DNA of 64,000 nucleotides, taken from Paucimonas lemoignei (GTDB taxonomy: Bacteria > Pseudomonadota > Gammaproteobacteria > Burkholderiales > Burkholderiaceae_D). The DNA lies in contig NZ_SLZQ01000003.1 of assembly GCF_004342585.1 (NCBI RefSeq), forward strand, positions 62,001-126,000, in the 5' to 3' direction. Position numbers and translations under genes: made by a program. Under the pieces are notes generated by a model, which did no database searches, was not told where the DNA came from, and worked only from the letters and a program-made list of their open reading frames with translations. Below, piece by piece: positions 13,354 to 62,003 of the stretch (the stretch's first letter is position 1; every line of letters begins with the position of its first letter).

Positions 13354-13733
13354 GTTGTCGTCTCCATTCATCCTCGTATTCGGTTTCTAGAACTTATTCT
13401 TGTTTTTCTACGGCGCGGGAAAATCGTTAAACTGTTTTTGCATCCTGGTTGCTTTCGCTTATAGGCAGCCCTTTCATCAAGTCCTGGTTAATTGAAATAT
13501 CTTTTTTCAGGATTGGCTCTGCAAGGAGATTTCTCGTTAGGATTGCGTCAGTCAAGGTTTCGGACACTGTCGTGCAATTCCGGAGGCCATCTTGAAATTT
13601 CAAGCAAAGAGAATTGTTAAAATTTTTGCACTTTTTTCTGCAAACTGGAAAATCTACTGGCTTACGCGTATTCTGTATCCAAGGGCAACTCACTCACCAA
13701 TTTGCTTCAGCTAGGCTCGGCCATGGGAAGGAT
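13354..13733. promoter_or_regulatory. Divergent control region between depolymerase A and its AraC neighbour, with a 14-bp palindrome
   Basis: These 380 AT-leaning bases lie between two divergent genes and hold both start regions. A perfect 14-bp palindrome, CTTGAAATTTCAAG, is at 13591–13604, about 130 nt before the AraC start and 240 nt before the depolymerase start. It could be an operator, though AraC-family sites are usually direct repeats. No clear sigma70 pair was recognised on either strand. Confidence 0.45.
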
Positions 13734-39139: not shown

Positions 39140-39648
39140 TATTCGCTCTTTTGTTGCTGCAAAGTCAGATTTGCATTCACCGTATCGATTTGCGCCTGCG
39201 CAGTAATATTCGCTTCGGTAACGGTTACCCGGGAAGTTTTTTGCATTTCATCGAGCCAGGCAACCATACCGGCAAAGGATACGGAGGTAAGCTGAACTTT
39301 GGCAATGTCGGTCCCTGCCATCGCCACGTTCTGAGCCTTCAGCCCAGCACGATTCAGCGCGGCATCGATGGCTTCCCTGGTCATGGGGGGAGGCGGTGGC
39401 GGCGTTTCACGGGACAGCGCCGAGGCTTGCGCCGACATGGCTTGCAGTTCGACGGCTTGCTGGCGCATGGTGGGCAGATTCTTCTGCAACTGCTGCCGCC
39501 CGACGTATGCCGGCTCGATCAACAGTATGTAGATCAGCGCCAGCACGATGACGACCGCCATCAGCAGTAATTGTTTGCGCTCGCGTTCGTTGCGCGCATT
39601 CCAGAAATCCGAAAACTTCTGACGGTAATTTTCAACGGCTGGACTCAT
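39139..39648 (-). CDS. gspM: Type II secretion protein GspM
   Basis: The 169-residue single-pass inner-membrane protein has an N-terminal cytoplasmic stretch ending RNERERKQLLLM, a membrane helix (AVVIVLALIYILLIEPAYVG) and a periplasmic ferredoxin-like domain (IDAALNRAGLKAQNVAMAGTDIAKVQLTSVSFAGMVAWLDEMQ). It partners GspL in the platform. The start overlaps the gspL stop by 4 nt. Confidence 0.92.
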   Translation of the reverse strand: MSPAVENYRQKFSDFWNARNERERKQLLLMAVVIVLALIYILLIEPAYVGRQQLQKNLPTMRQQAVELQAMSAQASALSRETPPPPPPMTREAIDAALNRAGLKAQNVAMAGTDIAKVQLTSVSFAGMVAWLDEMQKTSRVTVTEANITAQAQIDTVNANLTLQQQKSE

Positions 39649-40904
39649 TTGCCACTCCTGATTTGCCAGACCTTGTCGTTTTTCTGGGTGACGGTCAGAT
39701 TGCGCGATTGCAGCATGGAGCGCACTTGTTCGATGGGCGCGCCGGCACCATCCTTCAGCGTCACTTGCAGGGCTCGGTCACTGTAGTCGAGCGAAGCAAT
39801 GCCGGCACCGGGACGGCCTTGCGTAGCCGCCTGCCAGGCATCGCCGAATGCCGACGACAGCACCAGGAAGTCATCCGGCGCGGGTTGCCCCGCACGCTGT
39901 TTGGCCGTCGAGATATTGCGGCGCATTTGCAGCACCGGATCGCTGGTCAGCGGTTCCTTCGGATAGACGGACTTGAATGTCTGCGCCATGCCGGCACGCA
40001 GATCATTGGCTTCCCGCCGCAGGCGCAGCCACTCGACATTCATTCCAACGATATTGATCAGCAGGACTAGGCCCGCCAGGATCAACGGCCAGCGCCAGGC
40101 TTGCAGTTGCAGGCCGGGACCGCCGGCCGCGCCCAATCCTGCCGCCAGATTGAAAGGCGATGCCTTGGCTTCGGTAATCCAGCGCGGCCAGTTATCCGCG
40201 AACAGCGCGATGCGCTCTTCCTGATTCATTTCCTGCGCCGCTGCCTGGTAGGCGGGAATGCGATCTTGCGGCACAAACAGCGCGATGGCCTGATGCGGCG
40301 CCAGTGCCGCCAAGGATTCCAGGGCTTCGCGCGCCGCCGCTTCAGGCTGCGCGGGCAGCAATGCCAGGCCGACGCCATCCACGTCGCTCATGCGCAACGC
40401 CAGATCGACGTCCAGGCTGGTATTCGATTCCGTGAATGCAGCCGATACGGTATCGGGCTGGTAGGGCAGGCACAACTGCATGGGTAGCGCGGCAACGCTG
40501 CGTGCGCCCAGCGACAGCATGCGCTGCACGTTCCGTTCGAGCCATGCGCGGCTCACCACGGCCACTGTGCGCTTGCCTTCGATCGAAGGGCCGGCCGCCA
40601 GCACGCAATCAGCCGGATCGGTCATCAACTGGTCTTCCACCAGATTGGGCAATGCAGCCTTCAGCTTGGACGCCGGCATCGGCGGCACCTGGACCTGCAG
40701 CAGGTTGACATCACTGGCGGCCAGCAGCAGGACGACCTTCTGGGCCGCGCTGATGGTTTTTTCCAGCTGGTCGAGCGTGGCGCTACTTTCGCGCTCGACG
40801 GCGCCGCCATCGGTCGCCAGCGCAAAGCGGCACTCGGGCGCAGCCTCCGGCGGCGCTGCCTCCACCGCGGCCTTCGAAGGCAATCGAATATACAGTGTAC
40901 TCAA
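39645..40904 (-). CDS. gspL: Type II secretion protein GspL
   Basis: The 419-residue inner-membrane protein has an actin-like cytoplasmic domain (about 1–270), including KVVLLLAASDVNLLQVQVPPMPASKLKAALPNLVEDQL, which recruits GspE. One membrane helix (PLILAGLVLLINIVGMNVEWL) and a periplasmic ferredoxin-like domain at the C-terminus (GIASLDYSDRALQVTLKDGAGAPIEQVRSMLQSR) follow. It is coupled to gspM. Confidence 0.94.
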   Translation of the reverse strand: MSTLYIRLPSKAAVEAAPPEAAPECRFALATDGGAVERESSATLDQLEKTISAAQKVVLLLAASDVNLLQVQVPPMPASKLKAALPNLVEDQLMTDPADCVLAAGPSIEGKRTVAVVSRAWLERNVQRMLSLGARSVAALPMQLCLPYQPDTVSAAFTESNTSLDVDLALRMSDVDGVGLALLPAQPEAAAREALESLAALAPHQAIALFVPQDRIPAYQAAAQEMNQEERIALFADNWPRWITEAKASPFNLAAGLGAAGGPGLQLQAWRWPLILAGLVLLINIVGMNVEWLRLRREANDLRAGMAQTFKSVYPKEPLTSDPVLQMRRNISTAKQRAGQPAPDDFLVLSSAFGDAWQAATQGRPGAGIASLDYSDRALQVTLKDGAGAPIEQVRSMLQSRNLTVTQKNDKVWQIRSGK

Positions 40905-40922
40905 GGCGTTCTCGCTATTCTT

Positions 40923-41978
40923 TTAATTTTCCCGAATCCAGATCACTTGTGGCATTCGCGCCGCTCCCACGGGATTATCAATGCCACCGCGCTGCATCAA
41001 TGCCTGCACTTCCAGTCCCGCGCGATTCATGCGGACCTTGCCGTTGACCAGAAAGTATTCGGTCTTGAAGTCAAAGATGTCGCAATCCAGGTTGGTTCTG
41101 GCCAGCCGCGTGCCAATCTCGCATTTGTCTCTTAAATATGCCTGGTCACGGCTAGCGATCAACGTCGGCGCGTCTGATGCCGACAGTGTATCAATAGTTT
41201 GCATCTTTGCAGCGAGAACTTCACGGGATGCGGTATTGACATTGATTTTTGTCGAGCGCGGCAACACCACCACGTAGTCCTTGAGCTTGTTGACGATCTC
41301 CGGCGTAAAGCCCTGCACCGCCAACAAGTCGTCGACGTACTCGATTCGCAGCGGCCGCGCCTGGTCATCACCGCTCATGCCGGGATTGATCATGACTGTC
41401 GTGGTGGTGGTCGTGGACACCGTGCTGCTGGTGCTGGCGCTGCCATCGGGAGTTGTCGCGTTAGGCTGCACAATCTTTGGCTGCGCGGCGGCGATAGCCT
41501 GCGCGGCCGGCAGCGCCAGGCCAGGGTTCAAGCGCAATTCACCAAGCAGATTGCGAAACACCGCCACTTCAGCCAGGTTGATTTGTCCGCCGGTCGCCAT
41601 GTTGGTCAGATTGAAGCGGGACTGGGCATCAATGATGCTGCCCGACAGGATCGCTTCACCGGCATCGGAATCCGCCTGGCCGTTTTCGACATACTGATCC
41701 AGGCGCGTCTCGGCCAGGGGTACCGCCCATGGCTCGCCCAGATGATCGGCACCGGAGGTAGAGACATCGGCACGCAGGATCAGCGCCGACCAATCGAGCG
41801 CACCGCGAAGGATCCACTGCTTTTGCAGCTGCAGGCGCTGGTTTTCGATCGAGCGCACCTGCACCTGCTGCTGCCAGAACAGGCTGGCGACGATCGTGAT
41901 GGCCAGGGTCGTCAGCAGTAGCGCCGTCACCACCGCGACGCCGCGCTGCCGGTCAAATGCGCGAGTACCCCTTCTCAT
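40923..41978 (-). CDS. gspK: Type II secretion minor pseudopilin GspK
   Basis: GspK caps the pseudopilus tip with GspI and GspJ. The 351-residue prepilin-like protein starts MRRGTRAFDRQRG|VAVVTALLLTTLAITIV; the usual Glu at +5 is absent, as is normal for GspK. The large head domain includes SRFNLTNMATGG and VDDLLAVQGFTPEIVNKLKDYVVVLP (helix-hairpin-helix-like). A Thr/Ser-rich insertion (STSSTVSTTTTTTV) sits in the middle and resembles the depolymerase linkers in this window. It overlaps gspJ by 4 nt. Confidence 0.94.
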   Translation of the reverse strand: MRRGTRAFDRQRGVAVVTALLLTTLAITIVASLFWQQQVQVRSIENQRLQLQKQWILRGALDWSALILRADVSTSGADHLGEPWAVPLAETRLDQYVENGQADSDAGEAILSGSIIDAQSRFNLTNMATGGQINLAEVAVFRNLLGELRLNPGLALPAAQAIAAAQPKIVQPNATTPDGSASTSSTVSTTTTTTVMINPGMSGDDQARPLRIEYVDDLLAVQGFTPEIVNKLKDYVVVLPRSTKINVNTASREVLAAKMQTIDTLSASDAPTLIASRDQAYLRDKCEIGTRLARTNLDCDIFDFKTEYFLVNGKVRMNRAGLEVQALMQRGGIDNPVGAARMPQVIWIREN

Positions 41979-42667
41979 ACCGGCCCCAGCAGAAAAGTTT
42001 TCACCAGCGCGCCTGGCCGGTCATTCATGCGGATCGACACTTCGATCCCGGTCGGCACGGTCAGCGAGGTAGAGGAAACCGAACTTGCGTTCGAGGCCGG
42101 GTTGGAGCCGGCAACGGCATCCACGCCAGGAGTGCGCCAGCCGGCGCCATCATTCATCCAGGTGCGCACCGACATTTGCGACACGCCCGACTCCAGCGCC
42201 ACGCCGGGAGCGCCGCCGGTATTGCTGGTGACGGATAGCCACAAGGTGTCCAGTGCATTCAGGTCACGCGTGGGCAGCGATTCGCGACGCGTCAACACAC
42301 CGTTTTGCAAGCTATAGGCGACCAGTTGTATGCGTGAAGGCTGATTCTCGGCGAACACCTTGCGCACAAGGACGATGCGATCGGGCTCGACCACGATCGG
42401 CACGCGGCCTGGAATTGCATCCAGTTCGACCAACTGGGTGCAATCCCGCTGCATCTGCGCGAATGCCAATTGCATGCCCCGAGTCTGTTCCATTTCGCTA
42501 GTCAGGGCAATCCGCGCACGAATGATGCCGTCGAGTCCGCGCCAGCCGAGCACCGCGACGATGGCGAGCACGGTAATGGCAACCAGCAATTCCACCAGGG
42601 TAAAGCCACGCCGGTTACGCGCTGCGGGCGTAACGCGAGAAGATCGGCGTGACGAAGATGTATGCAT
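41975..42667 (-). CDS. gspJ: Type II secretion minor pseudopilin GspJ
   Basis: The 230-residue prepilin has a 21-residue leader ending RNRRG|FTLVELLVAITVLAIVAVLG, with Glu at +5, ready for the prepilin peptidase. The head domain contains LDGIIRARIALTSEMEQTRGMQLAFAQMQRDCTQLV and FAENQPSRIQLVAYSLQNGVLTRRE, typical of GspJ. Gene order I–J–K and the overlap with gspK support the call. No gspO (prepilin peptidase) gene lies in the window. Confidence 0.94.
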   Translation of the reverse strand: MHTSSSRRSSRVTPAARNRRGFTLVELLVAITVLAIVAVLGWRGLDGIIRARIALTSEMEQTRGMQLAFAQMQRDCTQLVELDAIPGRVPIVVEPDRIVLVRKVFAENQPSRIQLVAYSLQNGVLTRRESLPTRDLNALDTLWLSVTSNTGGAPGVALESGVSQMSVRTWMNDGAGWRTPGVDAVAGSNPASNASSVSSTSLTVPTGIEVSIRMNDRPGALVKTFLLGPV

Positions 42668-42673
42668 GTTTAT

Positions 42674-43057
42674 CTAGCCGTTATTGGGCACAATCTGCGA
42701 CAGTTTGATGATGCGCCGCTGCGGATTCTGGGCGTCGAAGACGCCGACTTCCACCCGGCGGAAATTGGCATTCGGTGTCGGCAAGACTTCCTCCTCGCAT
42801 AGCAGCGGCAGATCCCCCTGCGGGCACTCGAAGGTACGCTTGCCCAAAGCCGGCCATTCGCGCGCCAGGCGGATTTGCGACAGGCGGTTTTCCGCCGACC
42901 AGGTCGCCATCATGGAGGCGCGCAAGCCATTGCTGTTCTGAGTCAGGCTGCCGACTGCGCGCAGGCTTGCCCCCAGCGCGGTACCGACGATGACCAGCGC
43001 CACCAGCACTTCTAGCAGGGTAAAACCTCTTGAGGAGTATCTGCGCATACCAGGCAT
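42674..43057 (-). CDS. gspI: Type II secretion minor pseudopilin GspI
   Basis: The 127-residue prepilin starts MPGMRRYSSRG|FTLLEVLVALVIVGTALGAS, with Glu at +5. The rest (NGLRASMMATWSAENRLSQIRLAREWPALGKRTFECPQGDLPLLCEEEV) fits GspI. A start at 43057 places the ATG just after the gspH stop; an internal ATG at 43048 is an alternative, and the frame also runs upstream into gspH. Confidence 0.92.
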   Translation of the reverse strand: MPGMRRYSSRGFTLLEVLVALVIVGTALGASLRAVGSLTQNSNGLRASMMATWSAENRLSQIRLAREWPALGKRTFECPQGDLPLLCEEEVLPTPNANFRRVEVGVFDAQNPQRRIIKLSQIVPNNG

Positions 43058-43058
43058 G

Positions 43059-43535
43059 CTAATCCACCGTGAAGTTGCCGATGCCATCGGCACGGATCGA
43101 TACCGTGGCGTCGCCGACCGACATGCTCAGAATGAATGGTTTATCGACCGGTTCACGGCCAAAGACGATGCGCAGCGTATTGTCGTTGTTCTGCCCCATC
43201 ATGGGAGGATCGATGGCCAGACTGACCGGAGCCCTTTGAAATTCCCGCTCGCGCAACATGTCATCCCTATCCATCGCTTGCCAGACATTGTTTTCATCCA
43301 GTATCCAGAATCGATAGCGGTACTGGTCCACTTCGAAGGCGACCGGGCGATTGCGCACAATCGCCTCGTCACGCGCCAGCTGCAATAACAGGGCGATACG
43401 CTGGGCTTCATTCTGCAATGCCTGCCGGCCGCTGGGCAGGGCATTCAACGTGACAAAGCCCAGCATGATGCCGACAATGACCAGCACCACCAGCAATTCC
43501 AGCAGCGTGAAACCGCGCTGGCGAATGTGCTTCAT
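43059..43535 (-). CDS. gspH: Type II secretion minor pseudopilin GspH
   Basis: The 158-residue prepilin starts MKHIRQRG|FTLLELLVVLVIVGIMLGFV (Glu at +5). The following RQALQNEAQRIALLLQLARDEAIVRNRPVAFEVDQYRYRFWILDENN is the GspH/FimT-type head. It lies 8 nt after gspG and 1 nt before gspI. Confidence 0.93.
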   Translation of the reverse strand: MKHIRQRGFTLLELLVVLVIVGIMLGFVTLNALPSGRQALQNEAQRIALLLQLARDEAIVRNRPVAFEVDQYRYRFWILDENNVWQAMDRDDMLREREFQRAPVSLAIDPPMMGQNNDNTLRIVFGREPVDKPFILSMSVGDATVSIRADGIGNFTVD

Positions 43536-43543
43536 TGATATCC

Positions 43544-44008
43544 TTACAGTTCCCAGGAGCCGATGTCGGCATCAGGGCCAGTGCCGCCCGGCTGACCGTC
43601 CGCGCCAAAGGAAAACACGTCGACCTCGCCGTGCATGCCTGGCGAGAGATACTGGTACGGATGTCCCCACGGATCATTCGGCAGACGTTCGAGGTAACCG
43701 CCCTGCTTCCAGCCACGTGGCTCGGGGCCGGCAGTCGGCTTTGCGATCAATGCCTGCAAGCCTTGCTCAGTGGTCGGATACCGCAGGTTGTCCAGCTTGT
43801 ACAACTTCAGGCCTTGCATGATGGTGGAAATATCCTGACGAGCCGCGATGATGCGTGCATCGTCCGTCCGTCCCATCAGCTTGGGCACAACCAGCGCCGC
43901 CAGAATACCCATGATCACGACAACAACCATGATTTCGATCAACGTAAAACCAAGGGAGCGGCGACGCGACGCGGCACGCTGTTTAAAAACAGTCAAAGCA
44001 TTTGCCAT
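43544..44008 (-). CDS. gspG: Type II secretion major pseudopilin GspG
   Basis: The main pseudopilus subunit. The 154-residue prepilin has leader MANALTVFKQRAASRRRSLG cut before FTLIEIMVVVVIMGILAALV (Glu25 at +5), then VPKLMGRTDDARIIAARQDISTIMQGLKLYKLDN and RYPTTEQGLQALIAKP, a strong GspG signature. The C-terminal loop DIFSFG-like stretch (VDVFSFGADGQPGG) is the calcium-binding region of the family. It is the first gene of the operon; the 288 nt upstream to gtrA must hold its promoter, but no convincing consensus was found. Confidence 0.96.
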   Translation of the reverse strand: MANALTVFKQRAASRRRSLGFTLIEIMVVVVIMGILAALVVPKLMGRTDDARIIAARQDISTIMQGLKLYKLDNLRYPTTEQGLQALIAKPTAGPEPRGWKQGGYLERLPNDPWGHPYQYLSPGMHGEVDVFSFGADGQPGGTGPDADIGSWEL

Positions 44009-44296: not shown

Positions 44297-44689
44297 ATGA
44301 CCGATCTGTTCCGACAATTTGTGCGCTTTTTCGGTGTGGGCTGCGTCTCCGCGATTGGTCACTATGGTCTGCTGATCCTGCTGGTGCAGGTTGCCAGGAT
44401 TGACGCCGTGCCGGCGTCGGCTGCGGGCGCCTTGCTGGGCGCGTGGATCAATTACAGCCTGAATTATCGTTTCACCTTTCGCAGCAACAAGCGGCACGTC
44501 GAAAGCGTGACAAAGTTCGCTGTCGTCGCCGTTATCGGCTTGCTGCTCAATACCTTATTCATGTGGATCGGCGTTGACCTGCTACATCTGTATTACCTGC
44601 TCGCCCAGGTAATCACTACTGGCTTAGTGATGGTATGGAGCTTTTTGGCGAATCGCTTCTGGACTTTCCACGTCGCCGATGGAAAATAG
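44297..44689 (+). CDS. GtrA family membrane protein
   Basis: The 130-residue protein has four membrane helices and the GtrA signature (FVRFFGVGCVSAIGHYGLLILLV, LGAWINYSLNYRFTFRSNKRH, VITTGLVMVWSFLANRFWTF). GtrA-type proteins are thought to flip polyprenyl-phosphate sugars across the inner membrane for glycosylation. It heads a four-gene plus-strand cluster ending with a GT2 glycosyltransferase at 48204, fitting a GtrA/GtrB pairing. Confidence 0.88.
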   Translation: MTDLFRQFVRFFGVGCVSAIGHYGLLILLVQVARIDAVPASAAGALLGAWINYSLNYRFTFRSNKRHVESVTKFAVVAVIGLLLNTLFMWIGVDLLHLYYLLAQVITTGLVMVWSFLANRFWTFHVADGK

Positions 44690-44767
44690 ACAAATCCAGT
44701 CCTGCACTAGCTGCTATCATGGCAGGCCCCTTCATGTCCAAAATGTCAACCATTCATCCGAACAAGC

Positions 44768-45592
44768 ATGAGGCCATTTCTTCGAATGCCACGCGGCTGG
44801 TTTTGCCTGCTTTTGCTGCCGGTTTTTATCCTGGCATTGCCTGCTCATGCGGGCAATATCTCCTTTAATCTGACGATCAACGGCAATCGGCTGTTACTCA
44901 GCAATCAGGGCGATAGCCCGGCATTCGATCCCGTCGTGATGCGCCTGCTGGATAATGGCCACTGGGAAGTGCTGCCGCCAGCGGCAGGCAGTCCAACCCC
45001 CGTGGAATTCAGGCCGCAAGCCCAGGCGGAAATGGTATGGACCGAGCAACCTGCGCCGCCTTCGCCGGCGTCTCTCGAGACCTTGCGCCCGGTGATGGTG
45101 CGGTTCTTCGACCAGGCTGGCGCCAGCTTTGGCCAGATTTCCTTTTTCAACCAGCCGCAACCAGCCGGCAGCGATTTGATCCTGGACGCGGGTTACGAGC
45201 ATGGCAAACTGCGGATTGCTCCGCCCAAGAATCCCGAACACAAAGTTAGCTGGCTGGTATGGGCGCAGGAAGAAGGCATCGCCGCCCTGACCGACAGCTT
45301 GACGACGCCTCAGCCACAACCCGATGCCTTGCGCATCCAGTGGGGAAAGGATAGCAAGGAGCAAAACCTGGATTTGGGCAAAGGCTTGCCGACCGCATTC
45401 CTGCTGCACGAAACGCCGCAGGGCTTGCGACTGCAAGTCGTGCCGACCGGCCGGGCGCCAGGGCGTCAGCAACGCACTGCCTGGCTGGATCGGGGCGACC
45501 GATTCCGTAGCGCCGCCATGATCGCGCTGCTGGCCGGGCTGGCGCTGCTGGCCTGGCACGTGGCCGGCACCCGCCAACGACACAGTATCTAA
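44768..45592 (+). CDS. Exported or membrane-anchored protein of unknown function in the Gtr-like cluster
   Basis: I do not recognise this 274-residue protein. It has a signal peptide (WFCLLLLPVFILALPAHAG) and a Pro-rich, beta-looking body (SFNLTINGNRLLLSNQGDSPAFDPVVMRLL; VRFFDQAGASFGQISFF). A C-terminal membrane helix (SAAMIALLAGLALLAWHVAG) is followed by a short basic tail, so it probably faces the periplasm. It begins 78 nt after gtrA and ends 11 nt before the large membrane protein, so it belongs to that operon. Confidence 0.75.
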   Translation: MRPFLRMPRGWFCLLLLPVFILALPAHAGNISFNLTINGNRLLLSNQGDSPAFDPVVMRLLDNGHWEVLPPAAGSPTPVEFRPQAQAEMVWTEQPAPPSPASLETLRPVMVRFFDQAGASFGQISFFNQPQPAGSDLILDAGYEHGKLRIAPPKNPEHKVSWLVWAQEEGIAALTDSLTTPQPQPDALRIQWGKDSKEQNLDLGKGLPTAFLLHETPQGLRLQVVPTGRAPGRQQRTAWLDRGDRFRSAAMIALLAGLALLAWHVAGTRQRHSI

Positions 45593-45603
45593 CCATAATA
45601 AAA

Positions 45604-48207
45604 ATGAATAAGACACGACCAGTTCCATTTCCTCGATCGCTAAGGAACATCGGCTGGATTGCCGATGTGTTGTTTACTTTGGTTTGCGCAGGCTTGATTG
45701 CCTCGGTGCTGGGTGTGGCCTTCCTCAATTCGGGAAATTGGCCGACTGGCGGCGACGCTGCCTCGCATCTGCTGTACGCCAAGCTGTATGCCGACGACCT
45801 GCTGTTTTCCGGCCAGATCCTGCCATGGATGCCGGAAGTATTCGGCGGCATGCCCTTCCTTTCCTATTATTTTCCGCTGCCCTTCATTGTCATGGCATGC
45901 CTGTCCAAGTTCACGGGATTGGCGGTCGCCTTCAAGTGGGGCTCGTTCCTGGCTGCCATGGTGATGCCGGGCGCGGTCTTCGCCGCCAGCCGGCGCTGGC
46001 TGGGATTCTCCTGGCTCGCTTCCATGTTCGGCGCGCTGGGCGCATTGGCCTTCCTGGTGCATGAACAGAATTCGATCTGGGGCGGCAACCTGCTCTCCAC
46101 GCTCGCCGGAGAATTCGCCTACAGCTACGGCATGCTGTTTGCGCTGCTGTCGATGATGGCATGGGCACGCGCCGTCACGCTGCAGCGCGGCTGGCTGCTG
46201 GCGGCATTGCTGGAAGCGGCGAGCGGTTTTTCGCATGGCTTTCCACTGCTGATCCTGGGCTTTTCCAGTTTCCTGCTGCTGCTCGATTGCGGCGCGGCCG
46301 GCCCCGAGCGGGCAGCGCGTCTCAAGCGCACCTTCTTCATGCTGATGGCAGGGCATGCGCTAGCTTTCGCGCTATTGGGCGGCTGGCTGTGGCCGATGAT
46401 GGAAATGCATAGCCTGACCATTCCCAACGATGCATCCTTTCCGCTCGGCGGATGGCAAGATTTGCTGCCGGTGACGCTCTGGCCGGTGCTGGGCGGTGGT
46501 GCGCTCGGATTGGCACTGGTCGTCCTGCCATGGGTGCGGCGCGGCTGGGAAAGCGGTCAGCGGCGCGCATTATGCTATTTCATCGGCGCCGCCGGCCTGG
46601 CTGCGGTGGCGTTCATCGCCGGCGACCGGCTGGGCGTTGCGGATATCCGCTTCTTTCCGCTGGTCTGGCTGTTTGGCGCGGTTGCCTGCGGCTGGCTGCT
46701 GGGTCAATCGCTGTACGCATTGAGCGGCACTGGCAACGCCGATGTGACGCTCGTCTCCGCGCGCGTTTTGCTGGCAACCGCTGCCGCGCTTGGCATGCTG
46801 GGCTGGCTCGGCCCGAATATCCAGAAAGCGCCGGACTGGGGCTTGTGGAATCACTCCGGACTGGATGCCAAACCGCAATGGCATAATCTGACGCGCCTGT
46901 TTCCTGCCATGAGCGGCAACCTGTGGAGCCCGCGCTTGGCTTTCGAGCATGACCCGGACAATAACGATCTTGGCTCGACCCGTTCGCTGGAAGCGCTGCC
47001 CATGTTCCTCAACCACCGCCCGGTGCTGGAAGGCTTGTACATGGAATCCGCCGTGCTGGGGCCGGCGATCTACCAGGTGCAGTCGGAGATCTCGACGCGA
47101 CCCTCTTCGCCGCTGGTGCGTTTCCCGAGCGGCAGCCTGGACCCGGAATTCGCCGCGCGGCATTTGAATTTCCTGCATGCGGACACCATCCTGCTGCGCA
47201 GCGACGGCGCCAAAACCGCGATCGAAAATAGCGGTCATTTCACCAAGACGGCGGAAGCGCCGCCGTTTGCCCTGTATCGCGTGAAGAATTTCGACAGCCG
47301 CATGGCACAGGTGGTGACCCAACCACTGCAGCTGCGGCCGCAAAAAGAATGGATGCAGGATGCCTTTGCCTGGTTCCGCACCCGCAGCCGTTTCGACAAC
47401 TACCTGCCGGTATATGGCAAGGATTTGGCGATCAAGCCGCACCAGGGCGCCGCGCCGGCAGTGCGCGAAATATCTTTGACACGCAATGAGCTCGTGTTTG
47501 AAACTGATGCCGTCGGCAGCCCGCATCTGATCAAGATGGCGTATCACCCGCGCTGGCACCTCACGACAAAGGGCAGCATGCATATTGCCGGCCCGGGCTT
47601 CATGCTGGTGGTGCCGCAGGAAAAACAGATCCGCCTGGAATATGGTCATACCCTGGTCGGCAAGCTCGGCATGGTTGCGACGACGATCGGCTTCTTGATG
47701 ACCGCTTTCCTGCTCTGGCGCGCGCGCAGGACTGTTGCGGCAGGCAGCCCGGCTGCTCCTGTTTCCGCCCCAATCGGCCTGCGCGGCTGGATTCCGTTGG
47801 TTGCGTGCTGGCTACTGCTGCTCGTGGCGGGAATTTATTTGGGTCTCAACTCGCCGGAACGGGTGTATATGGCCGGATGGGAAGCGATGAATGCCAACCG
47901 CTATGCCGAAGCAAGCGAGAAATTCCAGCGCGCCTTCGTCTTGCGCAAGCCGCCCGCCAAGAAAGAAGAAGCGCTGTTCTGGCACGCCAAGTCCAATGAA
48001 CTCGCCGGCAAACGCACGCAAGCCAAGGCCGGCTATCGCGAGTTGATCGACACTTATCATGGCTTCTGGGTGCCGGAAGCCATGTACACCTATATTCTCC
48101 TTGAGTGGGAAGATGGCAATCGTGAAGCGATCAAGCCCTATGCGCAGCGACTCCGTGAGGAATACCCGAACAACAAATGGACTCAAAAGCTGGACGAACT
48201 CAAATGA
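45604..48207 (+). CDS. Large polytopic membrane protein with C-terminal repeat region (PTPS-related/GT-C-like)
   Basis: The 867-residue protein has about ten or more membrane helices in its first half. The N-terminal loop PTGGDAASHLLYAKLYADDLLFSGQILPWMPEVFGGMPFLSYYFP resembles the 6-pyruvoyl-tetrahydropterin-synthase-related membrane family and GT-C glycosyltransferases with an acidic first loop. A long periplasmic part follows, then two more helices (LVGKLGMVATTIGFLMTAFLLW; IPLVACWLLLLVAGIYLGL) and a TPR-like tail (YMAGWEAMNANRYAEASEKFQRAFVLRKPP). It could transfer the lipid-linked sugar onto a surface acceptor. It overlaps the next gene by 4 nt. Confidence 0.78.
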   Translation: MNKTRPVPFPRSLRNIGWIADVLFTLVCAGLIASVLGVAFLNSGNWPTGGDAASHLLYAKLYADDLLFSGQILPWMPEVFGGMPFLSYYFPLPFIVMACLSKFTGLAVAFKWGSFLAAMVMPGAVFAASRRWLGFSWLASMFGALGALAFLVHEQNSIWGGNLLSTLAGEFAYSYGMLFALLSMMAWARAVTLQRGWLLAALLEAASGFSHGFPLLILGFSSFLLLLDCGAAGPERAARLKRTFFMLMAGHALAFALLGGWLWPMMEMHSLTIPNDASFPLGGWQDLLPVTLWPVLGGGALGLALVVLPWVRRGWESGQRRALCYFIGAAGLAAVAFIAGDRLGVADIRFFPLVWLFGAVACGWLLGQSLYALSGTGNADVTLVSARVLLATAAALGMLGWLGPNIQKAPDWGLWNHSGLDAKPQWHNLTRLFPAMSGNLWSPRLAFEHDPDNNDLGSTRSLEALPMFLNHRPVLEGLYMESAVLGPAIYQVQSEISTRPSSPLVRFPSGSLDPEFAARHLNFLHADTILLRSDGAKTAIENSGHFTKTAEAPPFALYRVKNFDSRMAQVVTQPLQLRPQKEWMQDAFAWFRTRSRFDNYLPVYGKDLAIKPHQGAAPAVREISLTRNELVFETDAVGSPHLIKMAYHPRWHLTTKGSMHIAGPGFMLVVPQEKQIRLEYGHTLVGKLGMVATTIGFLMTAFLLWRARRTVAAGSPAAPVSAPIGLRGWIPLVACWLLLLVAGIYLGLNSPERVYMAGWEAMNANRYAEASEKFQRAFVLRKPPAKKEEALFWHAKSNELAGKRTQAKAGYRELIDTYHGFWVPEAMYTYILLEWEDGNREAIKPYAQRLREEYPNNKWTQKLDELK

Positions 48208-49193
48208 ACTCGACCATCCCTGCCACACCCGAACTCAGCGTTATCGTCCCCGCCTTCAACGAAGCAGAAGGTTTAGCAGCCTTTCTCGCGCAATTGTTTG
48301 GCGTACTGGCGACGTGCAGCGACAGTTATGAAGTCTGGGTAGTGGATGACGGCAGCCGCGATGCGACCTGGGAGCGCCTGCGCGGTGAACTGGCGCGTTA
48401 CCCGCAACTGCATGGCTTGCGCTTCACCCGCAATTTCGGCAAGGAAGCCGCGATTCTGGCCGGCCTGCGCCAGGTGCGCGGGCGCGCCGTCGTGGTCATG
48501 GATTCCGATGGCCAACACCCGCCTTCGCTGCTGCCGCAGATGCTCGACCTGTGGCGCAGCGGCAAAGCGCAAATCGTGGCGGCGCAAAAAGCCAATCGCG
48601 ATACCGACAGCTGGCTGGCGCGCCTCAACGCCCGCTTGTTCAATGGCTTGATGCATACCCTTACCGGGCTCGATCTCGAAGGCGCCTCCGATTTTCGGCT
48701 GTTGGACCGGCGCGTGGTCGATACGCTGCTGGCTTTCCCGGAAAAGATTCGCTTCTTCCGCGGCATGACCGTTTGGACGGGATTTACCACGGTGCCCTTG
48801 GCCTTCGATGTGGCGCCACGGATCGCCGGCAGCAGCCAGTGGAGCACAGCGCAGCTGATGCGCCTAGCCGTCACGGCGATTACTTCCTATAGCGCCAAGC
48901 CGCTGTCGATCGTGTTCCGTCTCGGCCTGTTCGGCATGCTGGCTGCTTTCCTGCTATTACTGCAGGCGGTCTACTCGTGGTTTACGCACGTCGCCGTGTC
49001 GGGATGGACATCGATGACTGTGGTCGTGCTGTTCTTCGGTTCCGCCAACCTGCTTGGCATCGGTATCCTGGGCGCGTATCTGGCGCAGATCTTCGATGAA
49101 ATCAAAGGCCGCCCCGAATTCCTGGTCGGTGAAATTTTGCCTGCGCCGGCTATCACAACTCAACACGACATCACGGCTAGCAAAACTATTTAA
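48204..49193 (+). CDS. GT2 glycosyltransferase, GtrB/DPM1-like
   Basis: The 329-residue enzyme has a GT-A domain: LSVIVPAFNEAEGLAAFLAQL, VWVVDDGSRD, AAILAGLRQVRGRAVVVMDSDGQHPP (metal-binding DxD) and FFRGMTVWTGFTT. Two C-terminal membrane helices follow (LGLFGMLAAFLLLLQAVYSW and TVVVLFFGSANLLGIGILGAYLAQI). This is the layout of polyprenyl-phosphate glucosyl/mannosyl transferases (GtrB). Its product would be flipped by the GtrA protein at 44297. Its ATG overlaps the upstream stop. Confidence 0.92.
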   Translation: MNSTIPATPELSVIVPAFNEAEGLAAFLAQLFGVLATCSDSYEVWVVDDGSRDATWERLRGELARYPQLHGLRFTRNFGKEAAILAGLRQVRGRAVVVMDSDGQHPPSLLPQMLDLWRSGKAQIVAAQKANRDTDSWLARLNARLFNGLMHTLTGLDLEGASDFRLLDRRVVDTLLAFPEKIRFFRGMTVWTGFTTVPLAFDVAPRIAGSSQWSTAQLMRLAVTAITSYSAKPLSIVFRLGLFGMLAAFLLLLQAVYSWFTHVAVSGWTSMTVVVLFFGSANLLGIGILGAYLAQIFDEIKGRPEFLVGEILPAPAITTQHDITASKTI

Positions 49194-49347: not shown

Positions 49348-50649
49348 TTACGGGCAAGTAGTGTCGATGACGTAGTAATTGGTACCGGTCTTACGCAGCT
49401 TGCTGGTGTAGAAGGTGTTGTTCAGCCCCATCTTCTGGTTCGAACCGTTGGTATATGCATAGCCACCGGTGTCATGAGCACGACCAGCCGTCACGTGCGC
49501 GTAGTTGCTCGAGTTGTAGCAAGCGCCTGCAGTTGTCGTCGTGGTGGATGCAGTAGTTGTAGTGGAAACCTTGGTGGTCGTGGTTGAAGCCTTAGTCGTG
49601 GTGGTTCCTGCCGACGTAGTCGTAGTGGTGCCAGCCGACGTGGTCGTGGTGGTGCCGCTACCGCCGATCAATCCCCAGAACTTGGCAACGTAATAGCTCG
49701 AGCAGATATTCACATCGAGGATATAGGCGCCAGCGGTGCCGCATTGCAGGGAGCCGGTGCCCGGATCAACCGGAGTGCCATGACCCATGCCGGTGATGGT
49801 ATAGGTTTCCACGAGCGCATTACCGCTGGCATCCTTGTACACCTTGTGCGGGAAGCCGGCCACCGTGTCGCTTACGTCTGCGGTTTGGTCGATGCCATGG
49901 TAGTTGGTCCACTGCTCCACTTCTTCGACCTGATTGGATTGCTTGACGGTATAGTCAGCATCGCCGTGCCAGATCGATACGATCGGCTTACGGCCGGTAT
50001 AGCCGCTGTAGCCGCCGCGCGCCAGGTCGCCCCAGGCAGCCGGAGTTTTATCCACGCCCGGGCTCATGCAGGTGAACGCATTGGTCATCGAAGTCGCGCA
50101 CTTGTACGGACCGCCCGAAAAAGGCGCGCCGCCGGCAAAGACGTCGGGATAAGTAGCCAACATGACGTTGACCATGTAACCGCCCGCCGACAGGCCTGTG
50201 ACATACACACGATTCGTATCGATCGAGTGGTCTGCCTTCATCTTGTCGACCATTTGCTTGATCGACAGGGCTTCGCCCTGGCCGCGCGCGATGTCGCCGG
50301 GCTCGAACCAGTTGAAGCACTTGTTCTGATTATTGCTGCTTTGCTGTTCCGGATACACCACATAGAACTTGTAGGTGTTGGCGAGCTGGGTCCAGCCGGT
50401 GGCTTCATAGGCAGAGGCGCTCTGGGTGCAACCATGCATGGCGATGACCAGCGGCGCATTGGCCGGCATGCTGGACGGCACATGCTTGTACATCAGAAGA
50501 TTGCCGGGGTTCGAGCCGAAGCCGGTTACCTGGGTCGCAGCGAGAGCCGAGGATGCGCTCATTGCCAGCAAGGGTGCTGCCGCAAGGAGAAGCCCGCGCT
50601 TGAGGAACAGCGAGAATTTCGAAGATTGTGTGGTCTGACTTGACATCAT
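49348..50649 (-). CDS. Secreted PHA depolymerase / feruloyl-esterase-like hydrolase B (type 1-like)
   Basis: The 433-residue precursor has a signal peptide (SLFLKRGLLLAAAPLLAMSASSALA). The catalytic domain is the LpqC/PHB-depolymerase type 1 family: GNLLMYKHVPSSMPANAPLVIAMHGCTQSASAY, YVTGLSAGGYMVNVMLATYPDVFAGGA (G-L-S-A-G, Ser154), SIWHGDADYTV (Asp230 or 232) and TGMGHGTPVDP (His290). A Thr-rich linker (about 333–375) leads to a 57-residue C-terminal domain starting CYNSSNYAHVTAGRAH, shared with depolymerases A and C. AGGAG lies 6 nt before the ATG at 50649. It is divergent from the LuxR-type gene. Confidence 0.88.
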   Translation of the reverse strand: MMSSQTTQSSKFSLFLKRGLLLAAAPLLAMSASSALAATQVTGFGSNPGNLLMYKHVPSSMPANAPLVIAMHGCTQSASAYEATGWTQLANTYKFYVVYPEQQSSNNQNKCFNWFEPGDIARGQGEALSIKQMVDKMKADHSIDTNRVYVTGLSAGGYMVNVMLATYPDVFAGGAPFSGGPYKCATSMTNAFTCMSPGVDKTPAAWGDLARGGYSGYTGRKPIVSIWHGDADYTVKQSNQVEEVEQWTNYHGIDQTADVSDTVAGFPHKVYKDASGNALVETYTITGMGHGTPVDPGTGSLQCGTAGAYILDVNICSSYYVAKFWGLIGGSGTTTTTSAGTTTTTSAGTTTTKASTTTTKVSTTTTASTTTTTAGACYNSSNYAHVTAGRAHDTGGYAYTNGSNQKMGLNNTFYTSKLRKTGTNYYVIDTTCP

Positions 50650-51072
50650 AAATGTCTCCTGAATATTTTTTATGTGATCTACTTTTAAGGGTTGGCTTTT
50701 CGCTCTTGTAAAATCTTGTTGCCAATACCGCCACAATCTTTCACCTCACGGATATTGAGGTTATGATTGAAAACCGGCTGCGTACTGTGATCCTTCGATT
50801 TTTGGCTTAGCAACATTTGCCAACAAGTTTCGCCTTTACGACAATTAAAATATTGCGATAAGCCAATAAATTCATCATAGTAAACGGTATAAGACTAGAC
50901 AACGGGCCATTTGGCCAGCCGCCAAATGTGCTGCTAAGCAGCAAAATAGCCCGAATAAAATTCGAAAAAGCCCATTAAAAGGATCAAAGAGCAGCGCAGC
51001 AAAGACGAGCGCGCAGCCTTTAAAAAATGGCGCGAGTCATAAAAAAATTTAAGCCGGAAACGGAGACAGGCA
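50650..51072. promoter_or_regulatory. Divergent control region between depolymerase B and the LuxR-type gene
   Basis: These 423 AT-rich bases contain two adjacent inverted repeats: CATTTGGC/GCCAAATG (50908–50928, 5-nt loop) and TGCTGC/GCAGCA (50929–50943, 3-nt loop). Together they form a back-to-back hairpin block about 130 nt before the LuxR start. They could be regulator sites or leader structures. No clear sigma70 pair was found. Confidence 0.5.
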
Positions 51073-51849
51073 TTGGAAACGGAGATGGACGCGCTTGCGC
51101 AGGCGACGGAATTGGGGGTCGATCCCGGCCTGCTAATGAATATTATCGTGCGCTCGACCGCAGTCGCCGACTCGCAAGCTCTCCTGACACTACTGAACAA
51201 CGAAGTGCAGAGCGTCTTGCACCAGGATGTCATGGTATGCGGCGTAGGCGGCGTCAGCCCTAAGGGCAGCTACGCCCATAAGGTGCTGCATCATAGTTAT
51301 CCCCCTGCTTACTTTGAGGATCTGGTCAGTGCCGAAGGCCGGGTTGACAGCCCGTTGATGCAGCGCTGGCGAGAAAAGCAGGAGCCGGTGTTTTTCCAGA
51401 GCGGGCGCGACGATGCGCAATATCCTGCCGACTGGGTGCGGATTTTTAACAAGTACCAGCTGCGCAATACCGTCGCCCATGGCGTGCTCGATGTGCAGCG
51501 CACGCTGTCGTCGTATTTCATCTTTTCGCGCATCCCCGGCGAAGTTGGGCCGCGCGAAGTCTTCATCATGAAGATGATCACGCCGCACCTGCATCTGGCA
51601 TTGGTGCGCGCCCTGACAACGGTGCAGGAATTCAGCCATTTGACGGCGCCGAATGAAGCGCTGAGCGATCGCCAGAAGCAGATCCTGCGCTGGATTAACG
51701 AAGGCAAGACCAACTGGGAAATCGCGCAAATCCTCGAAATGACGGAAAAGAATGTGAAGTACCACATCGAGCAGATTTTCTCGAAATTGCAGGTGAGGAA
51801 TCGCACGCAGGCTGTCGCCAAAGCGATGCTGCTGGGCTTGCTGTTCTAG
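51073..51849 (+). CDS. LuxR-type transcriptional regulator (EpsA-like)
   Basis: The 258-residue protein has a C-terminal LuxR/GerE helix-turn-helix (LSDRQKQILRWINEGKTNWEIAQILEMTEKNVKYHIEQIFSKLQVRNRTQAVAKA). The N-terminal region (PPAYFEDLVSAEGRVDSPLMQRW … YQLRNTVAHGVLDVQRTLSSYFIFSRIPG) is not a receiver or a clear autoinducer-binding domain and most resembles EpsA-type regulators, which I call with reserve. Start is a TTG at 51073 with ACGGAG upstream; the ATG at 51085 (MDALAQATEL) is the alternative. It sits between two depolymerase genes and ends at a bidirectional terminator. Confidence 0.8.
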   Translation: METEMDALAQATELGVDPGLLMNIIVRSTAVADSQALLTLLNNEVQSVLHQDVMVCGVGGVSPKGSYAHKVLHHSYPPAYFEDLVSAEGRVDSPLMQRWREKQEPVFFQSGRDDAQYPADWVRIFNKYQLRNTVAHGVLDVQRTLSSYFIFSRIPGEVGPREVFIMKMITPHLHLALVRALTTVQEFSHLTAPNEALSDRQKQILRWINEGKTNWEIAQILEMTEKNVKYHIEQIFSKLQVRNRTQAVAKAMLLGLLF

Positions 51850-52001: not shown

Positions 52002-53303
52002 TTACGGGCAGGTACCGATCACGTAATAACCAGGGCTGGTTTGCTTGAGCGTGCTGGTGTAGAAGGTATTGTTCAGCCCCATATTCTGGTTCGAACCGTT
52101 GGCCAGGGCATAGCCGCTACTGTTATGCGCCCGCCCAGCCGTCACATGCGCATAGTTGCTGGAGGTGTAGCAAGTCGCCGCTACCGTGGTGGTCGTGCTG
52201 GAGGCGGTAGTGGTCGTGGTGGCCGCGGTGGTGGTCGTGCCGGCGGCAGTGGTAGTAGTGGTGCCTCCTGCCGTGGTGGTTGTCGTTCCACCGCCGCTGC
52301 CTGCGCGGATGTTGTTGGTGAAGAAGTAATCCATCACGAACAGCGGATAATTCACGTATTGGCTAGTGACGTAGTTGGTGTTCTGTCCGCCAGTGCCCGC
52401 GGGCCAGGCATGACTCATGCCGCTGACCGACAATTCATGCGTACGCACCCGGCCACTACTGTCCTTGTAGGTCGTGTTGGTGCCGCCGGTTGCTACTGAC
52501 GTGCTGGCTTGCTTGGTGAAGGTGCCGCCGTAAATCTGGCGCATCGCATCCATCATCAATGGGTTGTACCCTGGAGCGACCGTGAAATCGCTGGTGCCCC
52601 AAACGACGCCGGCAATTTGCGTGGAAAAGTAGCTGGAGTTGCTGCCAGCCAGCGACAGGCAATTATTCTTCGCATTGGTGGCGGTATAACCAGACGGCAC
52701 GGCGCCAATTTGCAGCGTGGTGGTGCCTGGAGTCGGGCCGGCATTGGAGGCCCAGCCAGCGAACACGTCCGGAGCGATACAACCCAGCACGATGGTTTCA
52801 CCGCCGCCCGAGGACAAGCCGGTCACATATACCTGGTTCGGGTCGATCTCATACTGCGGGTCATTCTTGAAACGGTTGATCAAGTCGAGCAGCACGTATT
52901 CGTGGCCCGTGCTGCGGCTATGGCTGGTGCGGGAATAATCCCAGCAGTGCTGGCTGGAGACATTGCCGGTGGCATTCGGTGCGAGAATCACGGCACCATA
53001 CTGGTCGGCGGCGGCTTTCCAGTTATAGCCATTGTCGCCATTGTTGATCACGTCGCCGGAAGCGGTCTGGGCGCAGCCGTGCAAGACCAGCACCAGCGCG
53101 CGCTTGCCGTTGGCATGGACCGGTTGCGTGGCCGGCCAATAGTAAAAGCCGGTCAGATTGCCGCCATTGACGGAATCGGCCGCCCAGGTTTGCTGGCTCG
53201 ACCAAGCGCCTGGCCCGGCGGTGGCAGCCTGGGTGGCAAACGGGGCGAGCAATGCTGCAGAAATGACGCCGAGCTTGAAAGCGGCCTTCAAAGTGTTTCT
53301 CAT
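52002..53303 (-). CDS. Secreted PHA/PHB depolymerase C (type 2-like catalytic domain)
   Basis: The 433-residue precursor has a signal peptide (LGVISAALLAPFATQAAT). Its catalytic domain parallels depolymerase A: LVLVLHGCAQTASGDVINNG, YVTGLSSGGGETIVLGCIAPDVFAGWASNAGP (G-L-S-S-G, Ser164), WGTSDFTVAPGYN (Asp239) and SGMSHAWPAG (His298). It has the longest Thr-rich linker (about 338–375) and a 56-residue C-terminal domain starting CYTSSNYAHVTAGRAH and ending GTCP. GGAGACAAG precedes the ATG at 53303. A and C are thus paralogues, about 40 kb apart, while B differs in its catalytic domain. Confidence 0.87.
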   Translation of the reverse strand: MRNTLKAAFKLGVISAALLAPFATQAATAGPGAWSSQQTWAADSVNGGNLTGFYYWPATQPVHANGKRALVLVLHGCAQTASGDVINNGDNGYNWKAAADQYGAVILAPNATGNVSSQHCWDYSRTSHSRSTGHEYVLLDLINRFKNDPQYEIDPNQVYVTGLSSGGGETIVLGCIAPDVFAGWASNAGPTPGTTTLQIGAVPSGYTATNAKNNCLSLAGSNSSYFSTQIAGVVWGTSDFTVAPGYNPLMMDAMRQIYGGTFTKQASTSVATGGTNTTYKDSSGRVRTHELSVSGMSHAWPAGTGGQNTNYVTSQYVNYPLFVMDYFFTNNIRAGSGGGTTTTTAGGTTTTTAAGTTTTAATTTTTASSTTTTVAATCYTSSNYAHVTAGRAHNSSGYALANGSNQNMGLNNTFYTSTLKQTSPGYYVIGTCP

Positions 53304-53713
53304 AATTCTTGTCTCCGGTATTGAACTTATTAGTTGGAATGAACTGCCGACTGCGCTTTCCAGCTCTTCCTTTGCCACCCGCTGGGAGGTGGTTGCTTCT
53401 TATTTTTCTTTCATCCATCAACGCGGGAAACACTTAATTTTTTTGCTGCATTTTGTTTCCCTGTTGCAATAAATATGATCCTCTAATTTTCGGTTAGCAA
53501 TTAATTTCTGCATAAGTTTTGCAAACGATTGTTAATTGCCCTGGATGTTGTTTTCTCTCTGTTTTCAAGGAATTTTGACCTTTCGTAGCACTCCACCATG
53601 AAGTCGGAAAAGTTTGTCAGCTCTCAGCATGAGCAGCCTTTGGCTTGCTATGCTGCATTGGCAAGCACCTTGGCAATTACCCTTTATCGATTTGAATATT
53701 TTTGGAGAATCTT
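53304..53713. promoter_or_regulatory. Divergent intergenic region between depolymerase C and the cupin gene
   Basis: These 410 AT-rich bases hold the start regions of both genes. A separated inverted repeat, GCAATTAA (53497–53504) and TTAATTGC (53532–53539), lies about 200 nt upstream of depolymerase C. TTAGCAA occurs here and also upstream of depolymerase B (near 50807), which may be chance. No consensus promoter was recognised. Confidence 0.4.
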
Positions 53714-61892: not shown

Positions 61893-62003
61893 GTAACCAA
61901 GGTCAGCATCAGCGATCACGTGCTGTTCGGCCCGGGCGTCACCATTGGCGGTGAAACAGTTATCGGCGCCGGCAGCGTCGTCGTGCGCGGCATCCCGGCT
62001 TGA
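61893..62003 (+). pseudogene. Remnant of a left-handed beta-helix (hexapeptide) O-acetyltransferase gene
   Basis: Translated in the frame after the transporter stop, this stretch reads TKVSISDHVLFGPGVTIGG then ETVIGAGSVVVRGIPA and a stop. Those are the start and end of the catalytic region of maltose/galactoside O-acetyltransferases. The usual intervening segment with the active-site His and the earlier N-terminal part are absent. No start codon with an RBS is present. It looks like a decayed fragment with an internal deletion. Confidence 0.7.

Follow-up and report, generated by a model that had tools for sequence, protein, structure and literature searches.

A four-gene cluster of Paucimonas lemoignei predicted to O-glycosylate threonine tracts of exported proteins

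In Gram-negative bacteria, general O-glycosylation is usually ascribed to PglL-type ligases, which transfer whole oligosaccharides. Systems assembled from separate parts are also described: excerpts of two reports present a GT-A synthase, a GtrA flippase and a GT-C transferase as the components of multi-component transmembrane glycosylation of lipopolysaccharide (LPS), teichoic acids and cell-wall polymers (PMC8035078, PMC11127046). In Streptococcus mutans, according to the portion of PMC5856776 drawn on here, cnm is co-transcribed with pgfS-pgfM1-pgfE, Pgf mutants show altered mobility and protease stability of Cnm, and the threonine-rich region of Cnm is a predicted, not a mapped, site of O-glycosylation. 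An excerpt of PMC7801869 places the tetratricopeptide repeat (TPR) domain of the TMTC O-mannosyltransferases on the lumenal side of the endoplasmic reticulum. Here we analyze a cluster of four genes in Paucimonas lemoignei, at positions 44297–49193 of a 64,000-nucleotide stretch (the window; positions 62001–126000 of one contig, NZ_SLZQ01000003.1, in a 4.2-Mb genome of 39 contigs). The cluster encodes a GtrA-type protein, a periplasmic protein, a membrane protein of predicted GT-C fold and a family 2 glycosyltransferase (GT2), and its relatives recur beside genes for unrelated proteins with threonine-dense tracts. We consider it probable that the cluster O-glycosylates threonine tracts of Sec-exported proteins in the periplasm.

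Four genes, a predicted GT-C fold and a periplasmic partner

All four open reading frames (ORFs) lie on the plus strand, at the coordinates assigned to them by an earlier reading made from the letters alone (the sequence-only reading), and the observation made there is confirmed. The first gene (44297–44689) encodes a GtrA/DPMS-type small membrane protein matching PF04138 (GtrA_DPMS_TM; E 9.5e-27), a predicted polyprenyl-phosphate-sugar flippase. The last (48177–49193) encodes a GtrB-like GT2 matching PF00535 (E 2.3e-29), a predicted polyprenyl-phosphate sugar synthase whose closest solved relatives are Synechocystis sll0501 (E 1.7e-59 over residues 15–320), which we take to be GtrB, and then an ArnC-type transferase. 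Between them lie the gene for the periplasmic protein (44768–45592) and that for an 867-residue polytopic protein with a TPR-like tail (45604–48207), which matches PF10131 (PTPS_related; E 9.4e-17) and, at its C terminus, TPR families. Gaps of 78 bp (GtrA to periplasmic gene) and 11 bp (periplasmic to GT-C gene) bear out the tight succession that had been noted; the overlaps claimed with it were slightly overstated, because there is only one, between the GT-C and GT2 genes. It would measure 31 bp if GT2 began at the ATG at 48177; more likely the start is the ATG at 48204, which gives an ATGA start/stop overlap with the TGA of the GT-C gene at 48205–48207.

For the 867-residue protein we used an AlphaFold model built from an 18-row alignment (predicted local distance difference test (pLDDT) 81, predicted template modeling score 0.83), with the Foldseek matches re-scored by VIA-align. 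The top VIA-align match is yeast Pmt1-Pmt2 (Z 18.9, root-mean-square deviation (rmsd) 4.7, 363 residues aligned), followed by Pmt4, STT3/OST (oligosaccharyltransferase), DPY19, AftA, PglB and ArnT, with neighboring ranks tied: Pmt1-Pmt2, Pmt4, STT3 and DPY19 stand at Z 17–19, and many GT-C enzymes follow down to Z of about 13. The placing of Pmt1-Pmt2 first is the ranking of VIA-align, and Foldseek orders the matches differently (DPY19 7.8e-6, ArnT 1.6e-5, AftA 1.8e-5, Pmt4 only 8.9e-3). By predicted fold, then, the protein appears to be a GT-C enzyme that groups with protein O-mannosyltransferases and oligosaccharyltransferases; the model agrees with its earlier designation as the possible final transferase, and we predict it to be a protein O-glycosyltransferase. 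A sequence search of PDB with the GT-C profile retrieved no GT-C enzyme at E 1; its matches were mostly to TPR proteins and glutathione transferases. The match to a glutathione-transferase C-terminal domain (6to3, E 1.1e-4, residues ~306–362) was set aside as coincidence, the region being membrane helices in the model.

The catalytic aspartate of GT-C enzymes usually lies just after the first membrane helix. At that place the 867-residue protein has Asp51 (codon 45754–45756, motif TGGDxxS), invariant in 18/18 alignment rows and in six further relatives and, by analogy with GT-C enzymes, a candidate catalytic base. Over 24 rows, which take in relatives with profile E values of 1e-103 to 1e-111, and with one gap allowed, the other invariant columns include H211, R349, R444, E448, R460, E463, E476 and H641. 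The C-terminal TPR domain (residues ~749–867; 47848–48204), recognized by TPR_6 and YbgF matches, superposes on YbgF (2xev) with Z 16.4 over 116 residues and an rmsd of 1.9, and the helix count of the model suggests that it lies on the periplasmic side.

The product of 44768–45592 matches no Pfam or NCBIfam family, and a sequence search with its profile found nothing credible. Its model (AlphaFold, pLDDT 82) has an N-terminal hydrophobic helix with the look of a signal peptide, beta-sandwich domains and a C-terminal helix, in agreement with the signal peptide and C-terminal anchor noted earlier. Resemblance to immunoglobulin (Ig) and fibronectin type III (FnIII) domains is modest: the best VIA-align match reaches Z 6.6, and Foldseek returns many Ig/FnIII chains at a template modeling score of ~0.2. 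Because these scores are poor, we describe the protein as beta-sandwich, Ig/FnIII-like and claim nothing closer. Of the 19 named loci that cover the GT-C N terminus, 15 have its gene immediately ahead of the GT-C gene, and the two proteins are fused in two lineages (L070, hidden Markov model E 1.9e-89; G255/L053, 9.8e-37; G and L numbers are our own labels). It went undetected in three of the 19 loci (L076, L077 and L078), and the extra N-terminal domain of the L077 and L078 GT-C proteins shows no homology to it that we could detect. A gene of similar appearance comes after the GT-C gene in L135 and L136, and an alignment of these two sequences matches the periplasmic protein across 233 columns (hhalign probability 94.3, E 1e-7). 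The periplasmic protein is thus a real, conserved component of the cluster. In G407, whose GT-C gene encodes ~300 additional N-terminal residues, the ORF just before that gene (L134, 952–1872) encodes a CARDB-like protein (under cut-off) that seems to have a C-terminal membrane helix.

Relatives carry the gene set too, and variants of it occur in distant Pseudomonadota and in a record titled Desulfobulbaceae, so the lack of conservation that would have refuted the sequence-only reading was not observed. With the GT-C protein as query we found relatives in 2/200 genomes of the order, in 9/120 closer relatives (including 6/6 of the genus) and at 20 named loci, and the GT-C profile found 7/370 genomes of the class; the three genome counts include the genome of the window itself, and PF10131 was found in 0/14 control genomes. 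Carriers being few and scattered, the system is sparse and patchy. Titles of the named-locus records, most of them metagenome-assembled, include Polaromonas, Sterolibacterium, Desulfobulbaceae and Ectothiorhodospiraceae; one titled Omnitrophota (L065) is perhaps misbinned, since it is 67% identical. The position of the GtrA gene within the cluster varies among relatives, and an EamA-type small protein replaces GtrA in L136 and, judged by eye, in L135. In these two loci (L135, 3358–12358; L136, 2979–11980) the distant module is part of what is probably an operon for minor type IV pilins, in the order PilX-type gene (PF14341 in L136), Thr-tailed prepilin-like gene, GT2, EamA-type gene, GT-C/TPR gene and Ig-like protein gene.

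Threonine-dense proteins near the cluster

We called an ORF Thr-dense if it ran for at least 80 residues between stops and had at least 16 threonines in some 40-residue stretch. The cluster set comprised 29 genomes: that of the window (G000), L059 standing for G200 (identical DNA), 14 other G genomes and the 13 named loci not already represented by a G genome, with G204 on two contigs. As controls we took 40 stretches (633,837 bases) from 14 of the cluster genomes at round coordinates. A Thr-dense ORF was present in the fetched neighborhood of 20/29 cluster genomes versus 1/40 control stretches (Fisher's nominal P 1.5e-9, inflated by relatedness), and in 13 of the 29 it lay within 200 bp of the cluster core. 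Six distant genomes of the class sample gave 4/6 versus 0/14 control stretches (12 from the same six genomes, two from G119); among the four positives, G596 (L077) and G299 (L076) were already known, and G339 and G457 were new. These distant controls themselves include weak matches to the TPR part of the GT-C profile (L138) and to the periplasmic profile (L140), and a GT2 (L150).

The enrichment is largely particular to threonine. With the window omitted (29 stretches, 432,068 bases), Thr-dense ORFs numbered 53.2 per Mb near the cluster versus 1.6 per Mb in controls, and there was no enrichment of Ser-dense (13.9 vs 15.8 per Mb) or Pro-dense (20.8 vs 20.5) ORFs; Ala-dense ORFs were lower near the cluster (23.1 vs 44.2 per Mb). 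Val-dense (23.1 vs 0 per Mb) and Gly-dense (30.1 vs 15.8) ORFs were raised, which can be explained by ACN repeats read on the other strand (GTN, NGT), and Asp-dense (three ORFs vs 0) and Gln-dense (one vs 0) ORFs slightly so.

The Thr-dense neighbors belong to unrelated families, namely PF10503 (polyhydroxybutyrate (PHB) depolymerases), PF07963, PF13442 and PF17210, or to none. They include a prepilin in L094 (PF07963) and, by eye, prepilin-like proteins in L076, L135 and L136; a cytochrome c in L065 (PF13442) and a CxxCH protein in L077 (cytochrome c7, under cut-off); an SdrD_B-domain protein in L073 (at cut-off); and a lipoprotein-like protein without a family in L089. In L135 and L136 the Thr-rich prepilin-like gene lies upstream of GT2 on the same strand, at 92 bp and 61 bp, respectively. 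Because these unrelated proteins have in common a tract and a neighboring machine, we take the Thr tract as the substrate. Around the L077 and L078 modules we also observed Thr-rich CxxCH (cytochrome-like) proteins (L077, 2427–4142 and 11890–13203; L078, 8491–9771; both records titled Ectothiorhodospiraceae), one of which ends in a sorting-signal-like tail, GGGCTLV...LRRR.

In the window, the predicted acceptors are exported PHB depolymerases with TTTT-rich linkers, both encoded downstream of the cluster on the minus strand. One (49348–50736; NF050058, 334.7 bits; 26 Thr in 40 residues) is convergent with the cluster at a distance of 161 bp, and the other (52002–53378; TIGR01840, 299 bits) has 24 Thr in 40 residues. 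Paucimonas lemoignei polyhydroxyalkanoate depolymerases reportedly have Thr-rich linkers and are said to be glycosylated, although our literature search gave no confirmation. The sequence-only reading had placed Thr-rich proteins on either side of the cluster; immediately upstream, on the minus strand and divergent from it, lie instead the type II secretion genes gspL-K-J-I-H-G (39645–44008), a candidate export route for the acceptors, with L, K, I, H and G called by NCBIfam equivalogs above cut-off and J under its own. A third PHB depolymerase with a Thr linker (12100–13386, minus strand; TIGR01840, 252.7 bits; 16 Thr in 40 residues) is encoded 31 kb upstream. Between the two downstream depolymerase genes lies a gene for a LuxR-type regulator similar to EpsA (51073–51849; TIGR03020, 143 bits, cut-off 170), with relatives also in L048, L049, L059 and L071. 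After the Thr linker, the products of 49348–50736 and 52002–53378 both carry a 57-residue C-terminal module (CYxSSNYAHVxAGRAH...), present in five copies in the genome, in PHB depolymerase-like proteins (beyond this pair, at C1:312606, C3:74100 and C4:175607); in L006 the stretch that precedes a module of this type has no dense Thr tract.

Genome-wide counts of (ACN)6 runs, a weak discriminator that also catches simple repeats, point the same way. Nine cluster genomes had a median of 14 runs versus 2 in 111 other relatives (Mann-Whitney P 1.7e-5, uncorrected for kinship), with 18/111 of the latter also reaching 10. At least eight runs, a post hoc threshold counted by eye, were found in 7/7 cluster genomes of the class sample versus 56/363 others. 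Same-genus pairs with and without the cluster differed in the same direction in 4/4 cases (G339 12 v G553 3; G407 16 v G510 2; G255 22 v G224 9; and G234 13 v G261 5, G261 being 86% complete). In the Paucimonas genome itself, nine Thr-dense ORFs were found via TTTTT runs, 9/9 with an export-type N terminus as judged by hydropathy and eye. One genome of the class sample, G613, had 445 (ACN)6 matches (220 forward, 225 reverse), far more than any other, and no PF10131 match.

Proposed pathway and its alternatives

From the computed features (the gene families, the predicted GT-C fold, the fusion of the periplasmic and GT-C proteins, the recurrent gene set and the enrichment of Thr-rich neighbors) we infer a reaction, a TPR topology, a role for the Ig-like protein and an export route, as follows. 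The GT2 would charge polyprenyl phosphate with one sugar on the cytoplasmic side, and GtrA would flip the polyprenyl-phosphate sugar across the membrane. The GT-C protein would then move the sugar onto Thr hydroxyls in disordered tracts of Sec-exported proteins in the periplasm, where the periplasmic TPR and the Ig-like partner may hold the Thr-rich acceptor while it is unfolded. The products, here the TTTT-linker PHB depolymerases and elsewhere prepilins and cytochromes, would subsequently be exported, here probably via the adjacent type II system, and would bear stiff, protease-resistant glycosylated linkers. Of the two acceptors that the sequence-only reading had put forward, Thr-rich exported proteins gain strong indirect support from the neighborhood enrichment and nothing points to LPS, LPS genes not having been searched for; its interpretation is partly supported.

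Several observations weigh against the proposed pathway. A fold match by itself shows no function, and the GT-C protein has a single conserved D51, with a non-acidic residue after it in the alignment rows shown, rather than the acidic pair (DE/DD) of the first extracytoplasmic loop of protein O-mannosyltransferases (PMT) and TMTC enzymes. Beside the GT-C gene, GtrA was found in 12/20 named loci and GT2 in 15/20, so neither is constant. The Thr threshold was set after a first look at the sequences (a looser 15 was used in one early tally), and related genomes, such as the close kin L064 and L073, are not independent. No Thr-dense neighbor was found in 9/29 cluster genomes (G234, G235, G407, G444, L062, L063, L068, L070 and L074); in four of these nine, one side of the core has a contig end within ~500 bp, and four of the nine carry 13, 22, 16 and 14 (ACN)6 runs elsewhere. 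PF10131 was above cut-off in 0/14 of the most (ACN)6-rich class-sample genomes without the cluster, and a Thr tract therefore does not require this system; it was likewise above cut-off in none of 14 class-sample genomes with no (ACN)6 runs, and one high-(ACN)6 genome without the cluster had a sub-threshold PF10131 match of 20 bits. Finally, the genome also encodes a PglL-type O-oligosaccharyltransferase (L154, 527–2410, on C5; domains PglL_A, Wzy_C and Wzy_C_2) and two ArnT-like GT-C proteins, as well as an exosortase-A-associated O-ligase (L153, 1213–2517, on C2; PEP_O_lig_1, 517 bits). Because these are already present, the cluster would be an additional, dedicated pathway.

An alternative that we regard as unlikely is classical three-component surface glycan modification, in which LPS O-antigen or exopolysaccharide would receive a side sugar from the GT-C protein and the Thr-rich neighbors would be incidental. 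GtrA, a GtrB-like protein and a GT-C protein do form a known layout in the excerpts of PMC8035078 and PMC11127046, and the GT2 does match sll0501. However, this explanation does not account for unrelated Thr-rich genes beside the cluster in distant genomes, for an Ig-like partner that can be fused to the GT-C protein or for the placement in a minor-pilin operon in L135 and L136, and what borders the cluster in the window is gsp genes on one side and PHB depolymerase genes on the other (no search was made for polysaccharide genes elsewhere). The context thus points to proteins rather than LPS O-antigen as the acceptor.

The cluster could also glycosylate parts of the secretion or pilus machine, that is, pseudopilins or minor pilins, with Thr-rich exoproteins encoded nearby because they use a common export machine. 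Its adjacency to gsp genes in the window, L059 and L075 (G200, G204), and to pilin-like genes in L135 and L136, would fit, but several loci with Thr-rich neighbors, such as L065 and L073, gave no match to GspG or GspK at E 1e-4 within the fetched stretch (4 kb for L065; pilins were not searched for there), and the prepilin-like neighbor in L135, L136 and L094 has a Thr tract of its own; we consider this explanation quite improbable. That the genome's PglL-type ligase glycosylates the Thr tracts, or that they are unmodified, with the cluster serving another acceptor, seems very doubtful to us: such a ligase is present (L154) and many genomes have (ACN)6 runs without PF10131, but against it stands the linkage of the cluster to Thr-rich genes, linkage having been looked at for the cluster only.

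Over these alternatives we prefer glycosylation of Thr tracts by the cluster itself, and we lean, somewhat less firmly, toward a broader proposal: that the cluster represents a dedicated Gram-negative O-glycosylation pathway for mucin-like poly-Thr tracts, working one sugar at a time, as a bacterial counterpart of PMT/TMTC. The GT-C/TPR enzyme and its Ig-like subunit, sometimes fused, would there form an acceptor platform on which exoenzymes, prepilins and cytochromes are decorated. A search of the open-access literature found nothing on point for a Gram-negative Thr-tract glycosylation system or for PF10131 in glycosylation.

Comparison with known glycosylation systems

PglL/PglO also modifies exported proteins in the periplasm, but Wzy_C and PglL_A domains are absent from all four cluster proteins at E 0.1, the PglL-type gene being a separate one elsewhere in the genome. 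With the multi-component systems (GtrABC, GtlA-GtcA-GtlB and CsbB-GtcA-YfhO), as portrayed in the excerpts cited above, the cluster shares the same three kinds of component: a GT-A synthase and a GtrA-type flippase, by family, and a multispan GT-C transferase, by predicted structure. Unlike them, it has a TPR domain and an Ig-like partner in the periplasm, and its predicted acceptor is protein Thr tracts rather than polysaccharide or teichoic acid; the suggestion of the sequence-only reading that the set departs from classical gtrABC is borne out by the conserved periplasmic member and the TPR-bearing GT-C protein.

The nearest precedent, by analogy and as far as the portion of the S. mutans report extends, is Pgf (pgfS-pgfM1-pgfE-pgfM2). 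As there, a gene for a Thr-rich acceptor, here a predicted one, lies beside the cluster, and a membrane partner of the O-mannosyltransferase kind is present, by kind and not by PgfM1 sequence. The GT2 scores best with streptococcal PgfS among NCBIfam models (NF047588), yet at 217.2 bits it falls far under the equivalog cut-off of 500. In contrast to Pgf, the four-gene cluster, flanked by gsp and PHB depolymerase genes, contains no PgfS equivalog, no epimerase PgfE and no second GT-C gene or PgfM2; it has GtrA and the Ig-like protein, and its host is Gram-negative. To eukaryotic PMT and TMTC the likeness lies in the modeled GT-C fold, with its Z of 18.9 to Pmt1-Pmt2, and in a TPR domain that would be periplasmic as that of TMTC, in the excerpt cited, is lumenal; the 867-residue protein has no PF02366 or PF13231 (PMT) match at E 0.1.

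These comparisons suggest what a PF10131 subfamily and an unannotated periplasmic protein do; if this is right, glycoproteins can be predicted in genomes from the gene set, which is also a tool for adding glycans to the linkers of secreted enzymes. They point to a second Gram-negative route, aimed at Thr tracts by amino-acid composition and traveling with very different exported proteins, in a cluster that is akin to both S. mutans Pgf and eukaryotic PMT/TMTC and is a member of neither.

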